A stretch of DNA of 38,622 bases from Thiomargarita sp. (GTDB lineage: Bacteria; Pseudomonadota; Gammaproteobacteria; Beggiatoales; Beggiatoaceae): the NCBI GenBank assembly GCA_020718845.1, contig DYRG01000026.1:1-38622 (forward strand). The letters run 5' to 3'. This document shows positions 18,531 through 34,742 of this stretch, piece by piece. Within the stretch, counting starts at the first letter, position 1. The number at the start of each line of letters is the position of its first letter. The translations under genes were made by a program, and so were the position numbers. The notes beneath the pieces are model-generated. The model searched no databases and was not told the DNA's origin. It saw only the letters and a program-made list of their open reading frames with translations.

Positions 18531-18640
18531 TTTTGATTGAGTTTTAAATTTAAAAGAAACGCCTCAGCAATGGGGCGTTTTTTTATAGAAACGAGGAAAT
18601 AAAGAAATGTTTGATTCAGGGATTCGAGATAATAATCAAC
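18529..18640 (+). repeat. Left copy of a direct repeat flanking the defence module
   Basis: Bases 18587-18640 are identical to 26807-26860 (54 bases, covering the ribosome binding site and first codons of the helicase gene). Bases 18529-18561 match 26781-26813 at 30 of 33 positions. The right copy lacks the 27 bases between the two GAAACG words, exactly the terminator hairpin, as if lost by slippage between them. Confidence 0.85.
18558..18584 (+). terminator. Intrinsic terminator of hppA
   Basis: AACGCCTCA (18558-18566) pairs with TGGGGCGTT (18571-18579) around a GCAA tetraloop, followed by seven T. It is strong and placed 27 bases after the stop codon. The hairpin is missing from the second copy of this region at 26781-26860. 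Confidence 0.92.
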
Positions 18641-21600
18641 ATGAAAAAGTGGTTGAATTTTTTGAGGAACATCTCAAAGAAAATGCAGAGGTATCGATGA
18701 TTTCAGCGTATTTCACGATTTATGCGTTTGAACGATTACAAAACAAACTTGAGCGCATTGAGCATTTAAACTTTTTATTTGGAGAACCCCATTTTATTAT
18801 TGATAACCAACTTAAAGACAAAGCGTCGTTTAATGTTGAAGAAAAAGGTATTTCATTACACAGCCAATTACAGCAAAAGAATCTTGCAAAAAACTGCGCT
18901 GCATGGATTCGTAATAAAGTTGATATTAAATCGATCAAACAATCCAATCTTTTACACGGAAAACTCTATTACATTGAAGCAAATAATCGTGAGGAAGCAA
19001 TTTTAGGAAGCTCTAATTTCACTTTGAAAGGCTTAGGGGTTTCTCAGCATGAACAACATAATATTGAACTTAATTTAATTGTCGATAGCAATCGAGATAA
19101 ACAAGCCTTAAAACGCTGGTTTGATGAACTATGGAATAATCAACAATTAGTTAAGAACGTCACAAAAGAAGTTTTAAAATATTTAGAGCGTTTGTACATC
19201 AATAATAGTCCACAGTTTATTTATCAAAAAACCTTATATCATTTGTTTGAACATGAAATAAATCAAAATCTTGCCGATGATCCGTTTTATAATCGTGAAG
19301 ATTTTTTTAATAGCGATATTTGGAACGCGCTTTTTTTATTTCAACAAGATGGTGTTAAAGCCGCGATTAGAAAAATGATTAAACACGGAGGTTGCATTTT
19401 AGCAGACAGCGTGGGTTTAGGAAAAACCTATCAAGCATTAGCCATTATTAAGTTTTTTGAGAGAAACATTCAAAGAAAAGTGTTAGTTTTATGCCCAAAG
19501 AAACTCAATGAAAATTGGGTATTATATCAAGCAAAAAATCACAAATTAAATCCCTTTCTAAAAGATCGATTTGGTTATCAAGTTTTGGCGCACACTGATT
19601 TAACTCGAACCAGTGGAAAATCAAATGGAATTGATTTAAAACACTTTGATTGGTCGGATTTCGATTTAGTGGTCATCGATGAGTCGCATAATTTTCGTAA
19701 TGATCTGAAAGGAAAAAAAGGATTAAGTCGTTATGAACGTCTAATGAAACACATCATTAAACAAGGTGGAAAAACTAAAGTATTATTGTTATCCGCAACG
19801 CCTGTTAATAATGATTTGTCTGATTTGTTTAATCAAATTCGTTTTATTAGTGAAGATCGAGATGACGCATTTCAAAATAGCATGGGGATTTCTAGCATTA
19901 AAGACACCGTTTATCATGCTCAAAATGCTTTCAAAACATGGATGTCACAAAAAACATTTAATAAAACAAGTTTAATGGAGAAATTTCGCGCAGATTTCTT
20001 CAAATTATTAGACGAATTGACTATTGCACGATCACGGCAACATATTGAGAAATACTATCCTCAAACTTTAATCGATTTAGGAGGATTTCCCAAACGAAAC
20101 AAACCGATTTCTGTGCATTCAGAAATTGATACACAACAACAATTCATGGCATTTGATGAATTAAGCGATGAAATTTCAAAATACGAATTATCATTATTTA
20201 ATCCTTCTGCTTATTTGTTAGCAGAATTTAAATATTTGCCAGAGTATAAAGAAAAGTTAGGAAACATTGCTCAATTAACGCGGGAACATTTGTTAATTGG
20301 AATGATGAAAATTAATTTTCTAAAACGTTTAGAAAGTTCTATTTATTCTTTTGCAATTACAATGGATCGAACGGTTAAGAAAATTGAAACCTTAATTGAT
20401 AAAATTGAGCAATTTGATCGACAAAAAGATAAAAAGTCCTTATTTGATAAAATAGAAGCACCTTTAGATATTTTTGAAGAAAATAATGATGAAGATGATA
20501 ATTTTATTGTCGGCGAAAAATTGCAATTCAAAATTGCGCATTTGAACTATAAAAATTGGTTACAAGATTTACAGCAAGATTGTCAACAACTTATTAAATT
20601 GCGTGATATTGCAAAAATAATCACTTCCAAACGAGATGCTAAATTACTAAAATTAAAAGAACTAATACATCAAAAGGTGTTGCATCCGACGATAAATAAA
20701 CAAGGAGAACAAAATCGTAAGATATTGATTTTTACAGCATTTGCGGATACGGCTGACTATTTATTTCATCATTTAGAAATATGGGTACGTCATGAATTAA
20801 AGTTACATCTTGCTTTAGTGACTGGCTCAAAATTAAATAGTAGTTTTGGAGAGAAAAAATTTGAAGAAATTTTAATGAATTTTTCACCTCGTGCAAAGAA
20901 ACGCGATCAATTTATGGGCATTTATGCAGAAGAAATTGATATTTTAATTGCGACCGATTGTATTTCTGAAGGTCAGAATTTACAAGATTGTGATTATTTG
21001 ATTAATTATGATATTCATTGGAATCCAGTGCGTTTAATTCAACGTTTTGGAAGAATTGATCGGATTGGAAGTTTGAATGAAACAGTGAGCATGGTTAATT
21101 TCTGGGCAACTAAACATTTAGAGCATTATTTGAATTTAAAAAATCGGGTTGAAGCGAGAATGGTTTTAGTGGATATTGCCGCGACAGGAACAGATAATTT
21201 GCTTGCTGAACCTGAACAAGAAGAAATCATTAGAGAAGAATTGCATTATCGTGATCAGCAATTGAAACAAATTATGGAAGAAAATATTTTAGATTTGGAA
21301 GAATTTAATGATGGTGTTTCTTTGACGGATTTTAGTTTAACCGATTTTCGTTTAGATTTAGATGTTTATTTGAAAACGATTGAAACGCAATTAAAAGAAG
21401 CTCCCTTAGGTTTATATGCGGTTGTTCCCACAAATCCACATTATCCCGATATTAAAGCGGGCGTTATTTTTTGTTTGCAACATAATGTAATTTTCAATAA
21501 TGAACAACTGATTAAAGAGCGTTTTAATCCATTACAACCTTTTTTCTTAATTTATTTGTGCGAAGATGGAACTGTGCATTATAATTTCACGCATCCGAAG

Positions 21601-21882
21601 CAAATTTTAACGATATTTCGTCAATTGTGTGCGAATAAAACAGAACCGTATGAAGAACTTTGTGATTTATTTGACGCAGAAACCAAACAAGGTCAAAATA
21701 TGGATAAGTATAATGATTTAATTAAGCAAGCCTTTAGTGCGATTCAACAGCATTTCAATCAACGTGCCGCCAACGCATTACAATCTGGGCGTGGTGCATT
21801 GCTACCGATGATTGAAAATCAAATCAATAAACTCTCTGATTTTTCTTTAATCACTTGGTTAATTATCAAAGAAAATGGATAG
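18607..21882 (+). CDS. Phospholipase D-like / SNF2 helicase fusion, putative defence nuclease-translocase
   Basis: 1091 residues. Residues about 1-200 are a PLD-type nuclease domain with His117-x-Lys119 (LLHGKLYYI) and GSSN at 134-137, a catalytic set seen in restriction nucleases of the BfiI kind. Then comes a full SNF2/superfamily 2 motor: DSVGLGKT (Walker A, 267-274), DESH (358-361), LLSATPVNND, an acidic coiled insertion, DILIATDCISEGQNLQDC and QRFGRIDRIG (812-821, motif VI). The C-terminal 200 residues are unrecognised. Combined with the methylase two genes downstream, it looks like the cutting and translocating subunit of a restriction-type system, related in architecture to DrmD plus DrmC of DISARM but fused. 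The ribosome binding site is GAGG; no promoter is seen after the hppA terminator. First gene of the operon. Confidence 0.85.
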   Translation: MFDSGIRDNNQHEKVVEFFEEHLKENAEVSMISAYFTIYAFERLQNKLERIEHLNFLFGEPHFIIDNQLKDKASFNVEEKGISLHSQLQQKNLAKNCAAWIRNKVDIKSIKQSNLLHGKLYYIEANNREEAILGSSNFTLKGLGVSQHEQHNIELNLIVDSNRDKQALKRWFDELWNNQQLVKNVTKEVLKYLERLYINNSPQFIYQKTLYHLFEHEINQNLADDPFYNREDFFNSDIWNALFLFQQDGVKAAIRKMIKHGGCILADSVGLGKTYQALAIIKFFERNIQRKVLVLCPKKLNENWVLYQAKNHKLNPFLKDRFGYQVLAHTDLTRTSGKSNGIDLKHFDWSDFDLVVIDESHNFRNDLKGKKGLSRYERLMKHIIKQGGKTKVLLLSATPVNNDLSDLFNQIRFISEDRDDAFQNSMGISSIKDTVYHAQNAFKTWMSQKTFNKTSLMEKFRADFFKLLDELTIARSRQHIEKYYPQTLIDLGGFPKRNKPISVHSEIDTQQQFMAFDELSDEISKYELSLFNPSAYLLAEFKYLPEYKEKLGNIAQLTREHLLIGMMKINFLKRLESSIYSFAITMDRTVKKIETLIDKIEQFDRQKDKKSLFDKIEAPLDIFEENNDEDDNFIVGEKLQFKIAHLNYKNWLQDLQQDCQQLIKLRDIAKIITSKRDAKLLKLKELIHQKVLHPTINKQGEQNRKILIFTAFADTADYLFHHLEIWVRHELKLHLALVTGSKLNSSFGEKKFEEILMNFSPRAKKRDQFMGIYAEEIDILIATDCISEGQNLQDCDYLINYDIHWNPVRLIQRFGRIDRIGSLNETVSMVNFWATKHLEHYLNLKNRVEARMVLVDIAATGTDNLLAEPEQEEIIREELHYRDQQLKQIMEENILDLEEFNDGVSLTDFSLTDFRLDLDVYLKTIETQLKEAPLGLYAVVPTNPHYPDIKAGVIFCLQHNVIFNNEQLIKERFNPLQPFFLIYLCEDGTVHYNFTHPKQILTIFRQLCANKTEPYEELCDLFDAETKQGQNMDKYNDLIKQAFSAIQQHFNQRAANALQSGRGALLPMIENQINKLSDFSLITWLIIKENG

Positions 21883-21891
21883 ATAAATTTT

Positions 21892-22146
21892 ATGAAAAAT
21901 ATGATACACATCCAATGTCCTACAGAGTTATTAGTTAGCTTACAAGTTAATAGTGAAATTTTTGCTGATCTTATAAAATTTCAAACAGCAATTGCTCTAT
22001 TTAAACAGGGAAGAATTTCATCTGGTATGGCTGCACGCTGGCTTAATGTACCTCGTATTATTTTTTTAATGCAAGCAATGGAATTAGGGGCAGAACTTCT
22101 TGAAGATTCACAAGATGATTTTGATAGAGAAACCAAATTTACATAA
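21892..22146 (+). CDS. UPF0175 family protein, antitoxin-like
   Basis: 84 residues with the UPF0175 pattern: IHIQCPTELLVSLQVNSEIF, then AIALFKQGRISSGMAARWLNV, a small helix-turn-helix core, and an acidic tail. Such proteins usually precede a DUF3368 PIN toxin and are thought to be DNA-binding antitoxins. No toxin gene follows here; instead it is wedged between the helicase (9-base gap) and the methylase (12-base gap). It may be the operon's own regulator or a leftover of an invaded toxin-antitoxin locus. Both readings are inference. Confidence 0.75.
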   Translation: MKNMIHIQCPTELLVSLQVNSEIFADLIKFQTAIALFKQGRISSGMAARWLNVPRIIFLMQAMELGAELLEDSQDDFDRETKFT

Positions 22147-22158
22147 GGAATAATTCAG

Positions 22159-25100
22159 ATGTTATTAAAAAAAATTGAAGAAACAATTCAACACTTTGAG
22201 AACAACGATTTTATTAAACAATCAAAAGATTTGTTTAAAATATTGGGGTATGAAGGGGAAAGAGGATTAGATCAATTTTCACAACAACCTAATGAGTTTT
22301 TAAATCGTTTCGATGTTAATCAAAGATTTCAAAAACATCGGGGTCATTTTGAAGATTGGAAAAGAATTACGCTTTTATTTCAATACACAGATTCTGATGT
22401 TCAAAAAGCATTAGGATTTAAACAACTCTTTGAATCTAAAGGTAAATTTGATGGTTCAATTATTGAATCTTATTTGTTTATTGCATTAGAATTGGTAGAA
22501 GAAACATATAATCGTACCAAATACGCCGAGATAACTCGACATCTTAATAAAATCTTTGATATGCCTGCGTTAATTTTGTTTAAATCGGGACAATCTTTAA
22601 CTTTGGGTGTTATTCATCGGCGATTACATAAAAGAAATAAGCAACAAGATGTATTAGAAAAAGTGACTTTACTCAAAGATATTCGGATTTCAAATCCGCA
22701 TCGAGCGCATTTGGAAATTTTGAATGATTTAGCGTTGAGCAATTTAACGCCGAGTCCGCATAATTTTGTTGAATTACATCAACGTTGGCAGCGAGTTTTA
22801 GATACCAAAGAACTCAATAAGAAATTTTATAAAGAAGTATCGCAATGGTATTTCTGGGCGATCAAACAAGTTAATTTTCCTAATCCTGAAAATATCGAAT
22901 TAAATCAATATCATGCGCAAAATTTAATTCGTTTATTAACTCGGTTGTTGTTTGTGTGGTTCGTTAAGGAAAAACAACTTATTCCAGATCAACTGTTTGA
23001 AGAAAAACATTTGAATACGTTTTTAGAAAGCGATGATCACAGTCGTTATTACAAAGCGATTTTGCAAAATTTGTTCTTTGCAACTTTAAATCAAATTCGA
23101 GGAAAACGTCAGTTTAGAAAAGATAAGCAACAAATGAATGTCACTAATCTAATGCGGTATGAACGTTATTTTAATAAACCAGAGGAATTTTTAACGTTAG
23201 TTGAAAGCATTGTGCCGTTTATGAATGGAGGATTATTTGAATGTTTGGACAAACCACATCCCGATAAAAAAGGTAAGCAAGGCGGTGATGTGATTGTTTA
23301 TTATGATGGGTTTTCTGATCGGGAAGACAATGTATTAAAAGTCCCTGATTTTATCTTTTTTGGAGAACATAAGAATATTGATTTGAGCAGTGAATTAGGC
23401 ACTAAGCATAAATCAGTGCAAATTAGAGGATTAATTGATATTTTTAAGCAATACAAATTCACTGTCACAGAAAACACGCCGATTGAGGAAGATGTCGCCC
23501 TTGATCCCGAATTATTAGGACAAGTTTTTGAGAATTTGTTAGCAACTTATAATCCAGAAACGGGAACAACTGCGCGTAAGCAAACGGGTTCATTTTATAC
23601 GCCGCGTGAAATCGTTGATTATATGGTTGATGAATCATTAATTGCGTATTTAAATTCAAATCTACAAGGTTTCGAAAATCTTGCAAGTTTGCGTAAATTA
23701 TTAAATTATTCGACGGTAGAAAATCCTTTTAATACTGAAGAAACCTTGCAATTAATTAATGCGATTGATCATTGCAAAGTGCTTGATCCCGCGTGTGGTT
23801 CTGGGGCATTTCCGATGGGGGTTTTACACAAATTAGTGCATTGTTTGCATATTTTAGACCCGCAAAATAAGCAATGGAAAGAACGCCAACTTGAGAAAGC
23901 GCACGCCATTGATGATGATAAAATTCGTGAGCAACTCATTAATGATATTGAAGAGGCTTTTAATAACAATGAATTAGATTATGGGCGTAAATTGTATTTG
24001 ATTGAAAATGGCATTTATGGCATTGATATTCAATCAATTGCTATACAAATCAGTAAGTTACGATTTTTTATTTCGTTAATGGTTGATCAACAAATTGCTC
24101 AACATAAAGAGAATTTTGGGGTGCGTCCGTTGCCGAATTTAGAAACCAAATTTGTCGCGGCAAATACTTTAATTGGGATTGAGAAACCCAAAGCGCAATC
24201 TTCTTTATTATCAAATAAGGATATTGAGCAACTAGAACAAAAATTAAAAAATATTCGGCATCGGATATTTAGTGCAAAAACGCCCAAAACTAAACGAGAA
24301 TTGCGAGAACAAGATAAAATTTTACGCGAACAAATCGGTGAATTATTAGAGAAACATGGATTAGAACATCAAACCGCCGTGCAATTAGCACAATGGAATC
24401 CTTACGATCAAAATATGTCTTCTTCGTTCTTTGATCCAGAATGGATGTTTGGGGTTTCAAATGGATTTGATATTGTGATTGGAAATCCGCCTTATGTTCA
24501 AATCCAAAAGTTTAGTGGTCAAGAAATCCAAAAACAATGGGAAAATCAAAAATATCAAACATTTGTTAAAACGGGAGATATTTATACTTTATTCATTGAA
24601 AAAGGGATTTCATTATTAAAACAAAATGGTTTATTAACTTTTATTACTTCAAATAAATGGATGCGGGCGGGTTATGGTAAAGCATTAAGAAAGTTTCTAG
24701 CTATTAAAACTAAGCCATTAAAATTAATTGATTTTGGCGATTCGCAATTATTTGAAAATGCCACGACTTATACGAATATTTTAATTACTCAAAATAACAA
24801 TGAAAAAATAGCATTTAATGCCTGTGTTATACAAGATGATTTTACAATTGAAACACCATTAGCTAATTATTTTGATACTCATAAAAAAATCATGCCGTTA
24901 TTATCAGAAGAATCTTGGGTTATTTCTTCAAGTATTGAACAACAAATTAAAGCAAAAATTGAAGCCAAAGGAATACCGTTAAAAGACTGGGATGCAAAAA
25001 TATATCGAGGAATTACAACAAGCTTCAATGAGGCGTTTGTTATTGATACTCCGACGAAAGAACGTTTATGTTCAGAAGACCCAAAATCAACTGAAATTAT

Positions 25101-25722
25101 TAAGCCAATTCTACGCGGACGAGATATTAAACGTTATAAAACAGAATGGGATGGATTATGGATTATTTTTGCTCACAGAAGTTATGAAATAGAAAAATAT
25201 AAAGCAATATATGCGCGTCTTTTGGAATATAAACCTAATTTAGAAAAGCGTTTAAATGTTGTTAGAGATGGCGAGTTTTGGTGGCAAATTCCTTATGCTA
25301 TTTCTTATTTACACGAATTTGAAAAAGACAAGATTGTTTGGTTAGAAATGTCACCTTTATCAAATTTTACTATTGATAGTGACAAATCTATTGTTTTAAA
25401 TACAGCTTACATTTTAGCCAGTCCATTTATTAAATATATTGTCTCTGTTGTGAATTCAAAAGTAATTGATTTTTATTTTTTAACAATTGCGACAGAAGTT
25501 CGGGGAGCAACAAGAAGATATACAAAACAATATGTTGAACAAATGCCGATTCCAAAAATACCCCACGAACAACAGCAACCGTTTATAGAATTGGTGGAAA
25601 AGATTTTGTTGGATAAAAAAGCGGGACGCGACACCAAAGAATTAGAAGAAAAAATAGATCAACTGGTTTATAAGTTGTATGAATTGAGTGAGGAAGAAAT
25701 CAACATAGTGGAAGGAAAATAA
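22159..25722 (+). CDS. Eco57I-like N6-adenine DNA methylase, putative modification subunit
   Basis: 1187 residues. The gamma-class amino-methyltransferase core is intact: QTGSFYTPREIVDYMVDESL, DPACGSGAF (543-551, AdoMet site) and IVIGNPPYVQ with NPPY at 776-779 (catalytic). The ~480-residue N-terminal region includes FKSGQSLTLGVIHRRLHKRN and VTLLKDIRI, blocks recurring in large Eco57I-family methylases of defence islands. The last ~250 residues resemble a TaqI-C-like target recognition domain, ending in an EEKIDQLVYKLYEL helix. It should add methyl to adenine in a specific site to protect the host. No PD-(D/E)xK nuclease was recognised in it, so cutting may fall to the PLD-helicase partner. 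The ribosome binding site is AAGGA. Two scraps of its 3' end lie downstream (26393, 26583). Confidence 0.88.
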   Translation: MLLKKIEETIQHFENNDFIKQSKDLFKILGYEGERGLDQFSQQPNEFLNRFDVNQRFQKHRGHFEDWKRITLLFQYTDSDVQKALGFKQLFESKGKFDGSIIESYLFIALELVEETYNRTKYAEITRHLNKIFDMPALILFKSGQSLTLGVIHRRLHKRNKQQDVLEKVTLLKDIRISNPHRAHLEILNDLALSNLTPSPHNFVELHQRWQRVLDTKELNKKFYKEVSQWYFWAIKQVNFPNPENIELNQYHAQNLIRLLTRLLFVWFVKEKQLIPDQLFEEKHLNTFLESDDHSRYYKAILQNLFFATLNQIRGKRQFRKDKQQMNVTNLMRYERYFNKPEEFLTLVESIVPFMNGGLFECLDKPHPDKKGKQGGDVIVYYDGFSDREDNVLKVPDFIFFGEHKNIDLSSELGTKHKSVQIRGLIDIFKQYKFTVTENTPIEEDVALDPELLGQVFENLLATYNPETGTTARKQTGSFYTPREIVDYMVDESLIAYLNSNLQGFENLASLRKLLNYSTVENPFNTEETLQLINAIDHCKVLDPACGSGAFPMGVLHKLVHCLHILDPQNKQWKERQLEKAHAIDDDKIREQLINDIEEAFNNNELDYGRKLYLIENGIYGIDIQSIAIQISKLRFFISLMVDQQIAQHKENFGVRPLPNLETKFVAANTLIGIEKPKAQSSLLSNKDIEQLEQKLKNIRHRIFSAKTPKTKRELREQDKILREQIGELLEKHGLEHQTAVQLAQWNPYDQNMSSSFFDPEWMFGVSNGFDIVIGNPPYVQIQKFSGQEIQKQWENQKYQTFVKTGDIYTLFIEKGISLLKQNGLLTFITSNKWMRAGYGKALRKFLAIKTKPLKLIDFGDSQLFENATTYTNILITQNNNEKIAFNACVIQDDFTIETPLANYFDTHKKIMPLLSEESWVISSSIEQQIKAKIEAKGIPLKDWDAKIYRGITTSFNEAFVIDTPTKERLCSEDPKSTEIIKPILRGRDIKRYKTEWDGLWIIFAHRSYEIEKYKAIYARLLEYKPNLEKRLNVVRDGEFWWQIPYAISYLHEFEKDKIVWLEMSPLSNFTIDSDKSIVLNTAYILASPFIKYIVSVVNSKVIDFYFLTIATEVRGATRRYTKQYVEQMPIPKIPHEQQQPFIELVEKILLDKKAGRDTKELEEKIDQLVYKLYELSEEEINIVEGK

Positions 25723-28959: not shown

Positions 28960-29298
28960 TTAATGATGTTCAGAAGCTAAATTGATGGTGTATTTGGGGA
29001 TTTCAATAATTAAATCTTCCTCACCCACAATGCTCTGGCAAGAAAGCCGAGATTCCATTTCTAAACCCCATGCTTTATCGAGCATATCCATTTCTAAATC
29101 GCTCGGTTCATTTAAAGAATCCAATCCTTCCCGAATAATGACATGGCAGGTTGTACAACTACAAGATTTCTCACACGCGTGCTCAATATCAATATCGTTT
29201 TCTAATGCAGCATCACAAATGCTAATTCCACTCTCGACATTGATTTCTAATCCATTTGGGCACAACGTTTCATGCGGTAGAAAAGTTAGTTTAGGCAT
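28960..29298 (-). CDS. fdx: [2Fe-2S] ferredoxin, ISC/adrenodoxin type
   Basis: 112 residues. The cluster ligands follow the adrenodoxin-like pattern HACEKSCSCTTCHV with a distant fourth cysteine in SRLSCQSI. The N-terminal FLPHETLCPNGLEINVESG and LNEPSDLEMDMLDKAWGLE match Fdx of the iron-sulfur cluster (isc) system, where it supplies electrons for cluster assembly. No isc genes are adjacent: it stands alone between soeC and engB with a terminator on each side. It could serve the Fe-S-rich Soe proteins next door, but that is inference from position. Confidence 0.93.
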   Translation of the reverse strand: MPKLTFLPHETLCPNGLEINVESGISICDAALENDIDIEHACEKSCSCTTCHVIIREGLDSLNEPSDLEMDMLDKAWGLEMESRLSCQSIVGEEDLIIEIPKYTINLASEHH

Positions 29299-29358: not shown

Positions 29359-30330
29359 CTAAACTGTTTGATAGTAAAGGTTTTGTGGGTGATTGGCTTG
29401 AGCAAAGAAAAACCACCGTTCAAATAACAAACCAATGTATTGCACGACAAATGCCGCAATTAAAAGATTTTTCTCTCCATTTAAACCCATCAACAATAAC
29501 ACCGTCGGGATTAAGAAAGTTAAAATCAAAAATATCCATTTTATTGATTTGAAAAGAAACACCGTTGCATGATGAAAATATTCTCTTGTATTAAAAGAAC
29601 CGCCCATAAAGCCCATTGCTTTTTGTTTAATATGGGTGTGACGAATACCAATTGCACTTTGGATATTTGAACTATATTTTAACCTTGCGTTTCGATATAG
29701 AGAAAATCCTCTGGTAATCAGAGCAACTATTGTAATAATCACCGTCCAACCCGCATAGAATAAAACTAAATCAGGTGCTTGAAATACTGCAAACAACGTT
29801 GCAAAACAAAATCCCGATGCACCTCCTAACAAAATGTAATTCACAACTGTAATGGGATTTGCCCATTCTTGAAGGAATTTAATTCCCGCATACACCATGC
29901 CCGTACAAATAAATAACGCAAAGGTTGCAATCGTAGTTAAAATGCCTAATAAAAGCGTTAATTGTCCTTTAAATTCAGGTAGTTGCAAAAAATTAACGTC
30001 TAAATTAAAGAAATGTGCAACCCCATATAAAAACACTAATCCCATCATTAATGGCAGTGCAATCACTTCACGAGAAAGCCATGAGGTTTTCCATTGAACA
30101 ATTGCTCGCCATGCTCTTTCTGGATGTCCTAAATGAAATATTGAAGCGATTAATCCGCCAATTAAAAAAACTAAACTAATTGCACTGCCCAACGCATAGA
30201 AACTCACATGGTCTTGTTGAGGAATTAATTTTAAAGTGGCGTAACTTTCGACAGTAAATAATGCTAAGAAAAATCCTTGCCCAACGCCAATTAAAGTGGT
30301 GAGGAAAATTACAGAAAAAGCGGGATGCAT
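29359..30330 (-). CDS. soeC: Sulfite dehydrogenase membrane anchor SoeC
   Basis: 323 residues from the ATG at 30330, which has AGGAG 11 bases before it; a TTG at 30360 would overlap soeB. Eight or so membrane helices of the DmsC/NrfD-like family: MHPAFSVIFLTTLIGVGQGF at the start, SIFHLGHPERAW and WKTSWLSREVIALP are the typical blocks. It anchors SoeAB on the cytoplasmic face and passes electrons to quinone. It ends the operon, with a terminator 15 bases on. The assignment to sulfite oxidation rests on SoeA and SoeB type and on the AT-rich sulfur-bacterium setting; DMSO or polysulfide reductase anchors look alike. Confidence 0.88.
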   Translation of the reverse strand: MHPAFSVIFLTTLIGVGQGFFLALFTVESYATLKLIPQQDHVSFYALGSAISLVFLIGGLIASIFHLGHPERAWRAIVQWKTSWLSREVIALPLMMGLVFLYGVAHFFNLDVNFLQLPEFKGQLTLLLGILTTIATFALFICTGMVYAGIKFLQEWANPITVVNYILLGGASGFCFATLFAVFQAPDLVLFYAGWTVIITIVALITRGFSLYRNARLKYSSNIQSAIGIRHTHIKQKAMGFMGGSFNTREYFHHATVFLFKSIKWIFLILTFLIPTVLLLMGLNGEKNLLIAAFVVQYIGLLFERWFFFAQANHPQNLYYQTV

Positions 30331-30347
30331 AATTAAAAGAACTCCTA

Positions 30348-31073
30348 TTACATTAACCAATCGTCGAGAGAAACTTCTTTGCTGGTTTCGTGACGAATAT
30401 CTTCTTTTTTCAACGGATTATCCGCACGCACTAATTCATCTTCATGAATTCTCAAATGAGTTTTACGACGCGGCAAATAATGATTTGAAGGTTTTGTTCC
30501 CCATTCTGGCATCAGTTGATACCCTCCGCGTTCTCTAATTGCGAGAGAAACTTCTGAGGCTGGATCGTGAACATCACCAAATAATCTTGCACTGGTTGGA
30601 CACGACATTACGCACGCAGGTTTTCTCTCATTGGGAGGAAGATTTTGATCATAAATTCTATCCACACAAAGCGTGCATTTCTTCATCACTTTTTGTTTCT
30701 CATCAAACTCTCTTGCTCCGTATGGACAAGCCCACGAACAATATTTACAACCAATACATTTGTTATAATCAACTAAAACAATTCCATCTTCAGTTCTTTT
30801 ATAACTTGCTCCCGTCGGACAAACAGGAACACAAGGCGGTTCTTCACAATGCAAACAGGATTTTGGGAAATGCAACGTTTCTGTATTTGGAAATGTCCCA
30901 ATTTCATAGGTTTGCACTCGATTAAAAAACGTCCCCGTAGGATTTTCATCATATGGACGATCATCAAACATCGGACCTGCTTGTCCCGAAGTATTCCATT
31001 CTTTACAAGAAGTTACGCACGCATGACAACCCACGCACACATTTAAATCAATTACCAAAGCTAATTGTGCCAT
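30348..31073 (-). CDS. soeB: Sulfite dehydrogenase iron-sulfur subunit SoeB
   Basis: 241 residues with four cysteine clusters for four [4Fe-4S] centres: CVGCHACVTSCK (Cys13, 16, 19, 23), CLHCEEPPCVPVCP, CIGCKYCSWACP and CTLC with ACVMSCP. No Tat or Sec signal, so it stays in the cytoplasm, as known for SoeB of Allochromatium. It wires electrons from the SoeA molybdenum centre to SoeC. It starts 4 bases after hepT, with no proper ribosome binding site, so its translation probably depends on reading through the inserted toxin-antitoxin genes. It overlaps nothing; soeC follows after 17 bases. Confidence 0.9.
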   Translation of the reverse strand: MAQLALVIDLNVCVGCHACVTSCKEWNTSGQAGPMFDDRPYDENPTGTFFNRVQTYEIGTFPNTETLHFPKSCLHCEEPPCVPVCPTGASYKRTEDGIVLVDYNKCIGCKYCSWACPYGAREFDEKQKVMKKCTLCVDRIYDQNLPPNERKPACVMSCPTSARLFGDVHDPASEVSLAIRERGGYQLMPEWGTKPSNHYLPRRKTHLRIHEDELVRADNPLKKEDIRHETSKEVSLDDWLM

Positions 31074-31077
31074 AATA

Positions 31078-31500
31078 TTATTCTTTAAAAAACATTGCCT
31101 GTTTAGCAGTTGAAATAAAATTGCTCAAAAAAATATAATGACGTTCTTTAAGCAATAAATGTAATAATTCGCTATCAATAGTCAAATAATCATGAACAAG
31201 CGCATTACGCATTCCAATAATTTTTCGCCATTGTCTTAAATCTTCTAATGAAATCTTTTGTAATTCGGCTAATTTACTAAAACAATCGTAAGCATCAAGA
31301 GGTTGATGTTTTTGCTCAGTTTTTAGCCAATATTTTGCAACACCAATACAAGATTCAATTAACACTTGTAATGCTCGTTCTGCGGCTCGCCGTTCTAAAC
31401 GATTAAACAGTCTTATTTGTGCTATTTCACTGAGCAAATTCAAATCTTCTACACATTCAAAACAATGTTGCTCAACGGCTATAAGATATTCTTTGAACAT
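31078..31500 (-). CDS. hepT: HEPN ribonuclease toxin HepT
   Basis: 140 residues of the HepT (DUF86-type HEPN) family, all-helical. The active motif RX4HXY is present as Arg98, His103 and Tyr105 in RNALVHDYL. In characterised pairs HepT cleaves RNA (tRNA) as a dimer, and the MntA partner silences it by adding AMP groups to the Tyr of this motif. The gene overlaps mntA by 29 bases, in the usual antitoxin-first order. It sits inside the soe operon between soeA and soeB. Nothing in the motif suggests it is inactive. Confidence 0.9.
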   Translation of the reverse strand: MFKEYLIAVEQHCFECVEDLNLLSEIAQIRLFNRLERRAAERALQVLIESCIGVAKYWLKTEQKHQPLDAYDCFSKLAELQKISLEDLRQWRKIIGMRNALVHDYLTIDSELLHLLLKERHYIFLSNFISTAKQAMFFKE

Positions 31501-31864
31501 AATCTAATTCCATGCGGCTATGTATTCTAAGTGTTTCTTGCCACAAACGCATTTCATTACGACAAAATAACACCCAATCCGTTTGAATAATGCTCCAAGC
31601 TAATGGAATAGGTGCTTGATTTATATCAACAATTGACAATTTAAAATCATGCAAACCTAACTCTTTTTGCCAATCAATTGCTAAACATTCTGGACGCAAG
31701 CGTTTCTCTATTGGATCGTTTTTAATGAATGAAACAAAAGCAACCGCCAAATCATAATCGCTTTTTATATGTTCCAAACCTTTTGCTCTCGAACCATACA
31801 ACCAAACAATTGCAACATCCGAATTGCTTTGTGAAAGATTAACGATTTGCTCTAAAATATTCAT
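31472..31864 (-). CDS. mntA: MNT nucleotidyltransferase antitoxin MntA
   Basis: 130 residues of the minimal nucleotidyltransferase fold. The catalytic pattern GSX10DXD is complete: Gly24-Ser25 (LYGSRAKG) and Asp36/Asp38 (SDYDLAV). It is expected to AMPylate HepT and so neutralise it. It starts one base after the soeA stop codon (TAA-C-ATG) and overlaps hepT. The soeA end and the hepT end carry similar short sequence (TTTTTAAAGAA-TAA), so the pair is bordered by an imperfect direct repeat. Confidence 0.9.
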   Translation of the reverse strand: MNILEQIVNLSQSNSDVAIVWLYGSRAKGLEHIKSDYDLAVAFVSFIKNDPIEKRLRPECLAIDWQKELGLHDFKLSIVDINQAPIPLAWSIIQTDWVLFCRNEMRLWQETLRIHSRMELDYVQRISYSR

Positions 31865-31865
31865 G

Positions 31866-34742
31866 TTATTTCTTTAAAAACTTACCAGCAAAAAAGTTTT
31901 GCCAAGGGCGACGTTTATTCATGCCAGAAACGGGTTTTAAAGGTTTAAATTGTGGCGAAGTTGTTTCAGTTTCTTCAGGTTTTGCGGGGTAGATTTTTAC
32001 TCGAACATCATACCAACCTGCTTGTCCTGTTACTGGATCAGAATTTGATAAGTGTTCATTTGAATTTGTAATCGGGAGTTCTTCACTAATCAAATGGTTT
32101 AAAAGAAACCCTTGTTGTGATTCATTTGCATACGGCGACAAATTCCATGCTCCCGCCGCTTTTCCTATCGCATTCCACGTCCAAACCGTATGCGGTTCTA
32201 CTGCTTCAGAATAACGCGCCATGCAACGCACTTTTCCATGCATCGATTCTACCCACATCCAACCACCGTCCTCAATGCCAGCCGCTTTCGCCGTTTGAGC
32301 ATTAATGTAAAGATAATTATAGGTATGAATTTGACGCAACCAAGCATTTTGTGAATCCCAAGAATGATACATCGCCATCGGACGTTGCGTAATAGCATTT
32401 AAAGGAAATTGATGCTTATTTGTTACACTTGCTTCCAAAGGTTCAAAATAAAACGGCAATGGATCAAAATAGGTTTCTACCCGTTTTTTCAAACGTTCGG
32501 GCGGGCGACGTGTTCCTCTCTTTCCTTGCGCCGCCAAACGAAACTTTTGTAATACTTCCGAATAGATATGAATATTAATCGGTTCAGCATAACGAGTCAT
32601 CCCATTTGATTGCGCCCATTGCAAATAACCTTGATTCCAATTTCTCATATATTGATAAGATTTAGGCAATTCATGATGATAAACGCAATTGTTTTTCTCA
32701 TACATTTGCCATTGATTGGGATTAGGTTCACCTTTAAGGTTTTTCTCACCGCCAGTTCCTCTCCAACCTGCTAAAAAACCAATCCCAGAATTAGGCGCAG
32801 TTTCAAATCTTAAAATGAAATCTGGATAATCTCGATATTTGCGTTCACCTTTCTCATTTACAAAGGCGGGAAGTTGTAATCGTGTTCCTAATTCAATTAA
32901 CACTTCTTGAAAGGGTTTGCATTCTCCAGTTGGGGGAAGAACGGGGATACGAACTGAATCAACAGGTCCATCAAATTCAGAAATCGGTCGATCTAACATC
33001 GACATTACATCATGTCTTTCTAAATAAGTAGTGTCTGGCAATACTAAATCGGCAAACGCAACGGTTTCTGACATAAACGCATCTGCAACAATTAAGAAAG
33101 GAATTTTGTAATCTCCGTTCTCATCTTTATCATTGAGCATTTTACGAATTTGCTCGGTGTTCATGGAAGAATTCCACGCCATATTTGCCATAAATAACAA
33201 TAAGGTATCTATTTTATACGGATCGCCCCGCCAAGCATTTGTAATCGCATTATGCATAAGTCCGTGAACTGATAACGGATACTCCCAAGAAAAGGCTTTA
33301 TCTAATCGAACGGGTTCTCCCTTTTCATCCACAAACAAATCATTGGGATCAGCGGGCCAACCTAAAGGATTTCCATTCAAAGGCGTATTAGGTTGCACAT
33401 CATTTGGACTATTGGGTGTTTTAGGACACGGAGGAATGGGGCGAGGAAAAGGTGCTTTATGGCGAAATCCACCAGGTCGATCAATTGTTCCTAACAATGA
33501 CATCAAAATTCCTAACGCTCGAATGGTATGAAATCCATTTGAATGCGCCGCTAATCCTCTCATCGCGTGAAATGCAACAGGATTACCTTTAATGCTTTGA
33601 TGTTCAGTGCCCCACGAATCCGTCCATGCAATGGGTAATTCAATGCGTTGATCTCGAGCAACAATTCCCATTTCATGCGCTAATCTTCTAATCGTTTCTA
33701 CAGGAATTCCAGTAATGTCGGCAGCCCATTCTGGGGTATAATTTTCCACTCTTTCTTTTAGAAGTTGAAAAGCGGTTTTAACGGGTGTTCCGTCATCTAA
33801 TTTGAAATCACCTAACAAAAACGGATCAGCGGTGCGATTTTGAGTAGAAACGGGTTTATTTAAAGTCCGATCCCACCAGTATTTATTTTGCGGATCAAAA
33901 CAGCCTTCTTCTATTGGATCATTAGATCGAACAAATAATCCATAATTTGAACTATTTGGATCATCATTCACTAACTCGGCTGAATTAGAATATTGCACTA
34001 AAAATTCGCGGTCGTACAAACCTAATTTAATAATTTCGTGAATTAACGCTAATAATAACGCGCCGTCTGTTCCTGTTTTGATTGGAATCCATTCATCTGC
34101 AATCGCTGAATAACCCGTTCGAACGGGGTTAATTGAAATAAATCTTCCACCGTTTCTTTTAAATTTAGAAAGCTCGATTTTCATTGGATTTGAATGATGA
34201 TCTTCTGCCGTTCCAATCATTACAAATAATTTAGAACGATCTAAATCTGGTCCTCCAAATTCCCAGAAAGAACCGCCAATCGTATAAATTAAACCTGCCG
34301 CCATATTTACCGAGCAAAATCCTCCATGCGCGGCGTAATTGGGTGTTCCAAATTGTTTTGCAAACAAACCTGTTAAGGCTTGCATTTGATCGCGTCCGGT
34401 AAATAAAGCAAACTTCTTTGGATCAGTTGCTCTAATTTTCTTTAAACGTTCTTCAACAATATTAAAGGCTTCTTCCCACGAAATGCTTTCAAATTCGCCG
34501 TCGCCACGATTTGAATTTTCTTTTCTTTTCAAAGGCTTAGTTAAGCGGGCGGGCGAATATTGTTTCATGATCCCCGACGCGCCTTTTGCGCACATGACCC
34601 CTTTATTTAGAGGGTGATCGGGATTGCCTTGGATGTAACGCACTTCGCCATCGCGCAACGTCACGCGAATCCCGCATCGACACGCGCACATATAACAAGT
34701 GGTTGTTTTTACTTCAATTCTTTCTTTATTATTGTCAGACAT
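31866..34742 (-). CDS. soeA: Sulfite dehydrogenase molybdopterin subunit SoeA
   Basis: 958 residues of the DMSO-reductase family with bis-MGD cofactor. One [4Fe-4S] site near the N-terminus (CYMCACRC at 16-23 plus Cys51 in GVMCAKG). The likely molybdenum ligand is Cys143 in AAHGGFCSVNMA. Further blocks: DEWIPIKTGTDGALLLALIH, VLPDTTYLERHDVM and MYHSWDSQNAWLRQI. No Tat signal, so it is cytoplasmic; this, with SoeB and a DmsC-like SoeC, fits SoeABC, which oxidises sulfite to sulfate and feeds quinones in purple and colourless sulfur bacteria. Polysulfide or tetrathionate reductases are the main alternatives, but they normally have a Tat signal. The ribosome binding site AGAGGA precedes the ATG. 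Confidence 0.88.
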   Translation of the reverse strand: MSDNNKERIEVKTTTCYMCACRCGIRVTLRDGEVRYIQGNPDHPLNKGVMCAKGASGIMKQYSPARLTKPLKRKENSNRGDGEFESISWEEAFNIVEERLKKIRATDPKKFALFTGRDQMQALTGLFAKQFGTPNYAAHGGFCSVNMAAGLIYTIGGSFWEFGGPDLDRSKLFVMIGTAEDHHSNPMKIELSKFKRNGGRFISINPVRTGYSAIADEWIPIKTGTDGALLLALIHEIIKLGLYDREFLVQYSNSAELVNDDPNSSNYGLFVRSNDPIEEGCFDPQNKYWWDRTLNKPVSTQNRTADPFLLGDFKLDDGTPVKTAFQLLKERVENYTPEWAADITGIPVETIRRLAHEMGIVARDQRIELPIAWTDSWGTEHQSIKGNPVAFHAMRGLAAHSNGFHTIRALGILMSLLGTIDRPGGFRHKAPFPRPIPPCPKTPNSPNDVQPNTPLNGNPLGWPADPNDLFVDEKGEPVRLDKAFSWEYPLSVHGLMHNAITNAWRGDPYKIDTLLLFMANMAWNSSMNTEQIRKMLNDKDENGDYKIPFLIVADAFMSETVAFADLVLPDTTYLERHDVMSMLDRPISEFDGPVDSVRIPVLPPTGECKPFQEVLIELGTRLQLPAFVNEKGERKYRDYPDFILRFETAPNSGIGFLAGWRGTGGEKNLKGEPNPNQWQMYEKNNCVYHHELPKSYQYMRNWNQGYLQWAQSNGMTRYAEPINIHIYSEVLQKFRLAAQGKRGTRRPPERLKKRVETYFDPLPFYFEPLEASVTNKHQFPLNAITQRPMAMYHSWDSQNAWLRQIHTYNYLYINAQTAKAAGIEDGGWMWVESMHGKVRCMARYSEAVEPHTVWTWNAIGKAAGAWNLSPYANESQQGFLLNHLISEELPITNSNEHLSNSDPVTGQAGWYDVRVKIYPAKPEETETTSPQFKPLKPVSGMNKRRPWQNFFAGKFLKK

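Follow-up and report, generated by a model that had tools for sequence, protein, structure and literature searches.

A predicted HepT/MntA toxin-antitoxin pair between soeA and soeB of Thiomargarita sp., at a gene junction hit repeatedly in the Beggiatoaceae

In the window, a 38,622-nt stretch of DNA from a draft genome of Thiomargarita sp. (contig DYRG01000026.1), a HepT/MntA toxin-antitoxin pair is lodged between soeA and soeB, the genes for two subunits of a predicted sulfite oxidase. The pair is absent from the soe loci fetched from relatives, and other modules occupy the same soeA|soeB junction within the family, Beggiatoaceae. We consider it probable that the pair represents the operon insertion of a selfish poison-antidote module, with soeA|soeB as a favoured site in this family. 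The best supported form of this reading is that the site is one that the family tolerates or favours.

Results

Organization of the soe locus

The genes lie on the minus strand of the window in the order soeA, mntA, hepT, soeB, soeC. The molybdopterin catalytic subunit gene soeA (31866..34742; PF00384/PF04879/PF01568) encodes a protein with a full-length C-terminus, many homologues aligning to residues 952-958. Its stop codon is separated by 1 nt from the ATG of mntA (31472..31864), which overlaps hepT (31078..31500) by 29 nt, and 4 nt lie between the hepT stop and the ATG of soeB (30348..31073), the gene for a 4Fe-4S subunit with PF13247 and other Fer4 families. The sequence-only reading had described mntA as starting 1 base after soeA and soeB 4 bases after hepT, which is exact by the coordinates. 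Read-through or fusion of soeA and mntA is ruled out by the separate stop and start codons. The start codon of soeC (29359..30360; PF04976), encoding a DmsC-like membrane anchor, is uncertain: the listed TTG at 30360 gives a 13-nt overlap with soeB, and an ATG ten codons further in is a possible alternative. On the same strand, 60 nt past soeC, a 2Fe-2S ferredoxin gene (28960..29298; PF00111) may belong to the soe unit. Judged by strand and spacing, soeA-mntA-hepT-soeB-soeC would constitute one operon. On the plus strand of the window (18607-25722), an HKD+Snf2 helicase gene is followed by a type IIG restriction-methylase gene, likely forming a defence pair.

The name soe is based on gene order, Pfam domains (molybdopterin oxidoreductase, 4Fe-4S, DmsC) and a Tat check. 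A molybdopterin subunit, a 4Fe-4S subunit and a membrane anchor follow in the order A-B-C, and no Tat signal is evident by eye at the SoeA N-terminus. Against NCBIfam, neither SoeA nor SoeB reaches a cut-off among the best 25 matches listed, and SoeC has no match. The product is a predicted sulfite oxidase by domains and gene order, both of which resemble the cytoplasmic SoeABC enzyme as presented in an excerpt of PMC6397845; unlike that system, the window has a 787-nt toxin-antitoxin stretch between A and B. By sequence similarity, SoeA and SoeB belong to the host family. SoeB is 78-86% identical to its counterpart in 19 of the 56 other genomes searched, and in long matches most soe-bearing family members share 75-80% identity with the window in SoeA and 78-86% in SoeB. 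A second family group (G005, G014, G018, G020, G028) shows 54-57% and 62-63%, respectively. The window genome also carries dsrB and aprA, so that soe is probably less essential.

With a draft genome of 123 contigs, a wrong join of two contigs might in principle have created this arrangement. Such an artefact is hardly credible: neither soeA nor soeB is truncated, the joins fall at distances of 1 and 4 nt from a stop and a start codon, borders that a false join would ignore, the 38,622 nt include no N, and the assembly has a completeness of 99.97% and a contamination of 0.22%.

Identity and integrity of the HepT/MntA pair

The HEPN RNase toxin HepT matches PF01934 (E 6.7e-23) and passes the NCBIfam model NF047751 (HepT_toxin) with 85.9 bits against a cut-off of 60. 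Its RX4HXY motif is intact (RNALVHDY, residue 98). The adjoining MNT adenylyltransferase antitoxin MntA matches PF18765 (E 4.1e-16) and PF01909 (26.5 bits against 21), and is only just over the cut-off of NF047752 (MntA_antitoxin; 61.4 bits against 60, a margin of 1.4 bits), with an intact GSX10DXD motif (GSRAKGLEHIKSDYD, residue 24). HepT also matches the solved HepN toxin chains 5yep and 7aer (E 8.5e-6); MntA has no match among solved structures at E 0.001. In PADLOC, HepT is unmatched and MntA has a weak PDC-S09 match. In comparison with four close relatives, codon positions 1 and 2 of the pair are more conserved than position 3 (0.73/0.83/0.52 for hepT against the relative at L050), as expected of genes kept as proteins; mntA and hepT are real genes, not chance ORFs. 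The pair is most likely an intact type VII HEPN/MNT system, and the earlier description of a complete module with intact motifs between two subunits of one enzyme is borne out by family models and motifs alike.

The HepT/MntA type VII system of Shewanella oneidensis (SO_3166/SO_3165) is defined by the motifs RX4HXY and GSX10DXD; there MntA uses ATP to modify HepT, and the AMP-receiving tyrosine of the studied HepT is Y104, according to the available portion of PMC7641770. The window pair shares with it the order mntA-hepT, both motifs, the PF01934 toxin and the 5yep/7aer chain match; it differs in lying between subunit genes of one enzyme, and its activity is predicted. By motif position, the residue matching Y104 would be Tyr105 in the window HepT. 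As established for the family, MntA would attach AMP to the RX4HXY tyrosine of HepT, silencing the RNase.

A second HepT/MntA pair is present in the same genome (L094:2745-4790, contig C77). Both of its proteins score above their NCBIfam cut-offs (60.7 against 60 for MntA), and 19 nt of its hepT are shared with the 5' end of tilS.

Relatives, composition and entry of the pair

The GC content is 34% for mntA and 31% for hepT, against 40% for soeA, 40% for soeB and 35% for soeC. No mntA or hepT match occurs at the other fetched soe loci. Within the 56 other genomes searched, HepT identity peaks at 38% over at least 90 residues, apart from a single 39-residue match at 41%. One genome from each of 84,980 species was put through a pattern scan, which detects close relatives only and gives 21 loci. 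The six closest (L049-L054, 69-72% identity) belong to Crenothrix, Methylobacter, Methylococcaceae and one unassigned gammaproteobacterial MAG, none adjoining soe; the nearest HepT/MntA relatives are found mainly in methanotroph MAGs. Not every copy is whole: a stop interrupts hepT in L051, and part of the gene is deleted internally in L057. Three of the 21 loci (L052, L054, L057) carry the pair between a CRISPR gene of PF08798, which we take to be of Cas6e type, and cas1, with other genes also intervening in L052 and L057 and the hepT frame overlapping cas1 by 31 nt in L054. The module lineage thus also occurs inside another gene cluster. By eye, further small toxin-antitoxin-like ORFs surround mntA-hepT in L052. 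Phage records contain no HepT relative, and none is confirmed among viral contigs; no clear vehicle emerges, since only three plasmid records hold a HepT relative (at most 52% identity), two of them replicons of 0.8-0.9 Mb.

The end of soeA (GTTTTTAAAGAAATAAC-ATG) and the end of hepT (GTTTTTTAAAGAATAATATT-ATG) have the 11-mer TTTTTAAAGAA in common. This direct repeat has its left copy at the soeA 3' end (31870..31880, minus strand) and its right copy at the hepT 3' end (31081..31091, minus strand), beyond the part of hepT that still resembles other HepT proteins. Sharing of at least 11 nt arises by chance in 52 of 20,000 AT-matched and 13 of 20,000 unmatched random segment pairs, and in 33 of 20,000 shuffles, so the modest AT-rich signal hints at duplication or short-homology joining, short of proof. 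The AAAGAA within each copy is so placed that, as a weak ribosome-binding site, it could help to initiate translation of mntA or soeB, respectively. An insertion acquired horizontally is the best explanation of the pair, as part of the reading that we hold probable as a whole. A type VII module, antitoxin mntA first and toxin hepT second, would have entered the 3' end of soeA, perhaps by way of the short common AT-rich stretch, and left soeA and soeB unharmed.

The tight embedding in the soe operon could also point to domestication, in which the pair regulates the operon or the cell and ties toxin output to sulfite-oxidation expression and ATP. MntA spends ATP in modifying HepT (as stated in part of PMC7641770), and the second pair of the genome overlaps tilS. 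However, the pair is found at the soe locus of one genome only, and the conservation expected of a useful regulator is missing over the species searched, which makes domestication improbable.

The soeA|soeB junction across the family

The order is represented in the collection by this family only, with 42 genomes, 25 of which have SoeB at E 1e-80. The junction is readable, a single contig spanning the soeA end and soeB, in 15 genomes; ten others are not readable in this way. Four of the 15 readable junctions, from three lineages, carry a poison-antidote or restriction gene set. The window genome (G000) has HepT/MntA. Two genomes of one genus (G001, G035) have BrnT (PF04365) with a 66-aa partner ORF that matches no Pfam or NCBIfam family; this insert retains a leader of about 160 nt and is consequently not tightly embedded. 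The fourth (G020) has a DNA methylase and an RE_TdeIII restriction enzyme (PF09520) whose ORF matches its profile from position 32, the continuity of this insert resting on scaffolding because 100 N separate the two genes. In the window, a same-strand module stands between linked genes that adjoin in relatives, which is the arrangement of operon insertion, and the junction itself is hit repeatedly in this family; this recurrence is the new point.

The remaining 11 junctions have no gene insert (G003, G005, G008, G014, G016, G018, G025, G028, G031, G059, G060). Their gaps range from -4 to 288 nt, and those of at least 150 nt contain no ORF over 53 aa. The gap in G025 (L082) holds an inverted-repeat element, GTAGGGTGGGCAAG...CTTGCCCACCCTAC, pieces of which also lie beside the BrnT insert in G035.

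Elsewhere in the family the link between soeA and soeB is broken. In at least four genomes (G019, G029, G033, G057) soeB-soeC stands apart from full-length soeA, which in G019, G029 and G057 lies elsewhere with other genes after it. In G033, a 52-residue soeA remnant (49% identity) is followed by 3.2 kb and then soeB, full soeA being located elsewhere; the 3.2-kb stretch holds a 147-aa ORF, an AAA ATPase and a HEPN ORF. In G022, soeA and soeB are at least 3.2 kb apart, with soeB on another contig, and a CdiA_C toxin-domain ORF and an unassigned 150-aa ORF lie 3' of soeA (L205:4756-5670). soeA is not found at E 1e-100 in G030, G034 (59% complete) and G058 (63% complete), and in G013 and G017 the locus ends at contig edges. 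soeB and soeC are together in 23 of the 24 fetched family loci; for G058, soeC is not found in the stretch taken.

These broken loci bear on a neutral explanation, which overlaps with the preferred one on all but the role of selection. The soeA|soeB link would simply be loose in the family, SoeA and SoeBC being expressible apart, so that any DNA can land between them, and the pair would bear no special relationship to the operon. This is a serious contender, though we lean somewhat against it. The separation of soeA from soeBC in four genomes, the distance of at least 3.2 kb in G022 and the failure to find soeA in three fit it, as do the gene-free gaps of 160-288 nt in five family genomes, the repeat element in G025, and the G033 insert, which is not a plain poison-antidote set. 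On the other hand, in all four genomes with a gene insert between full soeA and soeB, that insert is a poison-antidote or restriction set; both window junctions are nearly gapless with every frame intact; and dsr gaps as large as 1,061 nt lack such modules by eye.

Junctions outside the family and control operons

The sequence-only reading had suggested comparing soe loci of sulfur oxidisers for soeA-soeB adjacency, and outside the family this adjacency proves to be the rule. In a survey of the class, 105 of 369 genomes matched, 104 of them outside the family. soeA lies directly upstream of soeB, with a gap of at most 382 nt, in 90 of the 91 fetched outside-family loci, the 91st being at a contig edge. 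None of these 90 junctions carries a poison-antidote or restriction set, and their gaps of at least 150 nt contain no same-strand ORF over 50 aa; in L086, a 104-aa frame in the gap runs on the opposite strand. The difference from the family (4 of 15 against 0 of 90) has p 2.9e-4.

As controls, dsr, apr and nuo junctions were taken from the 30 best-scoring family genomes per anchor gene, a set that differs from the soe genomes: dsrA|B (30), dsrB|E (30), dsrE|F (30), dsrF|H (27), dsrH|C (22), nuoH|I (30), nuoJ|K (8) and aprB|A (30), in total 207. No toxin-antitoxin or restriction set is seen in these 207, gaps over 300 nt having been read by eye and their ORFs judged without a family search; the dsrB|dsrE gap of G006 has a small same-strand ORF, DsrE-like in look. 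With the reservation that soeA|soeB was chosen because the window genome has an insert there and that the controls are core genes, with nuoI|nuoJ omitted and soe probably less essential, 4 of 15 against 0 of 207 gives Fisher p 1.4e-5, 3 of 14 with the window genome left out gives 2.1e-4, and 2 of 13 with the genus also collapsed gives 0.003.

Two junctions were omitted from the control, nuoK|nuoL (n=1) and nuoI|nuoJ, where by eye 28 of 30 fetched loci (L244-L273) have an ORF of mostly about 180-270 aa with MORN-like repeats, between the genes or right after nuoI. This ORF is absent from the window genome. Two further small same-strand ORFs in G012 and one further ORF each in G008 and G002 also lie at nuoI|nuoJ, so the control is not insert-free in a wide sense. 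The dsrA|dsrB gaps of L224 (G035:C264) and L227 (G061:C3) agree in length and in ORFs across two genera, and another contig of G035 carries a second dsrB; together these may reflect contamination of G035.

Transcription of the locus

The soe promoter would probably read through the pair, giving a transcript soeA-mntA-hepT-soeB-soeC. The earlier proposal that all soeB and soeC translation must come from an mRNA bearing the toxin pair fails as a necessity, since soeBC has no soeA ahead of it in at least four relatives (G019, G029, G033, G057) and is thus expressible without it. In genus g23, a similar stretch, as judged by eye, lies just upstream of soeB in G022 and G034 despite different neighbour genes, which suggests a transcription start of its own there. 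Promoter and terminator scans are near chance level; the consensus promoter scan, with 20 promoter-like sites against 19.6 expected, says nothing on a promoter inside hepT.

Discussion

Earlier publications describe an MNT-HEPN module inserted in an operon as well as restriction systems lodged between the subunit genes of a single enzyme. The former is from Thermus thermophilus HB8, where it sits in the operon for lysine biosynthesis; HB27 lacks it (PMC2701414, in part). This case resembles ours in having the same kind of module in a metabolic operon, missing from a close relative; it differs in operon and organism, and the passages concerned describe one site and not its repeated occupation by different modules. 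For PabI-family restriction-modification genes located in glutamate and histidine operons, the term 'operon insertion' has been used, together with the proposal that it imposes maintenance of the operon; in the his cluster, one restriction system has partly replaced another (excerpts of PMC4615327 and PMC10273834). Like the window pair, these genes share the strand of the functionally linked operon genes around them, with glutamate synthase subunits among the cited examples; unlike it, a type VII pair, they are restriction enzymes of Helicobacter and Campylobacter, as far as these excerpts extend. Among the papers listed for soeABC or Beggiatoa together with toxin-antitoxin systems, no title concerns such an insertion at soe.

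Under operon insertion, the module would gain persistence, because its imprecise deletion would break the sulfite oxidase, and the pair would be retained by selection rather than tolerance. Loss of the stretch would also end the supply of antitoxin. Stabilization of the operon by the pair is possible, and reasonable given the imposed maintenance that the authors on operon insertion propose (PMC4615327, PMC10273834, in the parts cited). For a type VII system it would be less straightforward, since AMP-marked HepT presumably stays silent; the mark being covalent, simple post-segregational killing would be less obvious than with a labile antitoxin. More speculatively, the junction might be a reoccupied niche, in which HepT/MntA, BrnT and a type II restriction set settle independently and operon and modules shield each other, the pair perhaps also reporting the energy yield of the enzyme through the ATP use of MntA; we regard this extension as doubtful.

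In conclusion, what is new here is recurrence at one site, with unrelated modules in related bacteria at the same soeA|soeB spot. In the excerpted work, persistence through operon insertion is argued from gene neighbourhoods (PMC4615327, PMC10273834). One junction with occupied, empty and broken versions in one family offers a place to test whether operon insertion aids the persistence of a module.
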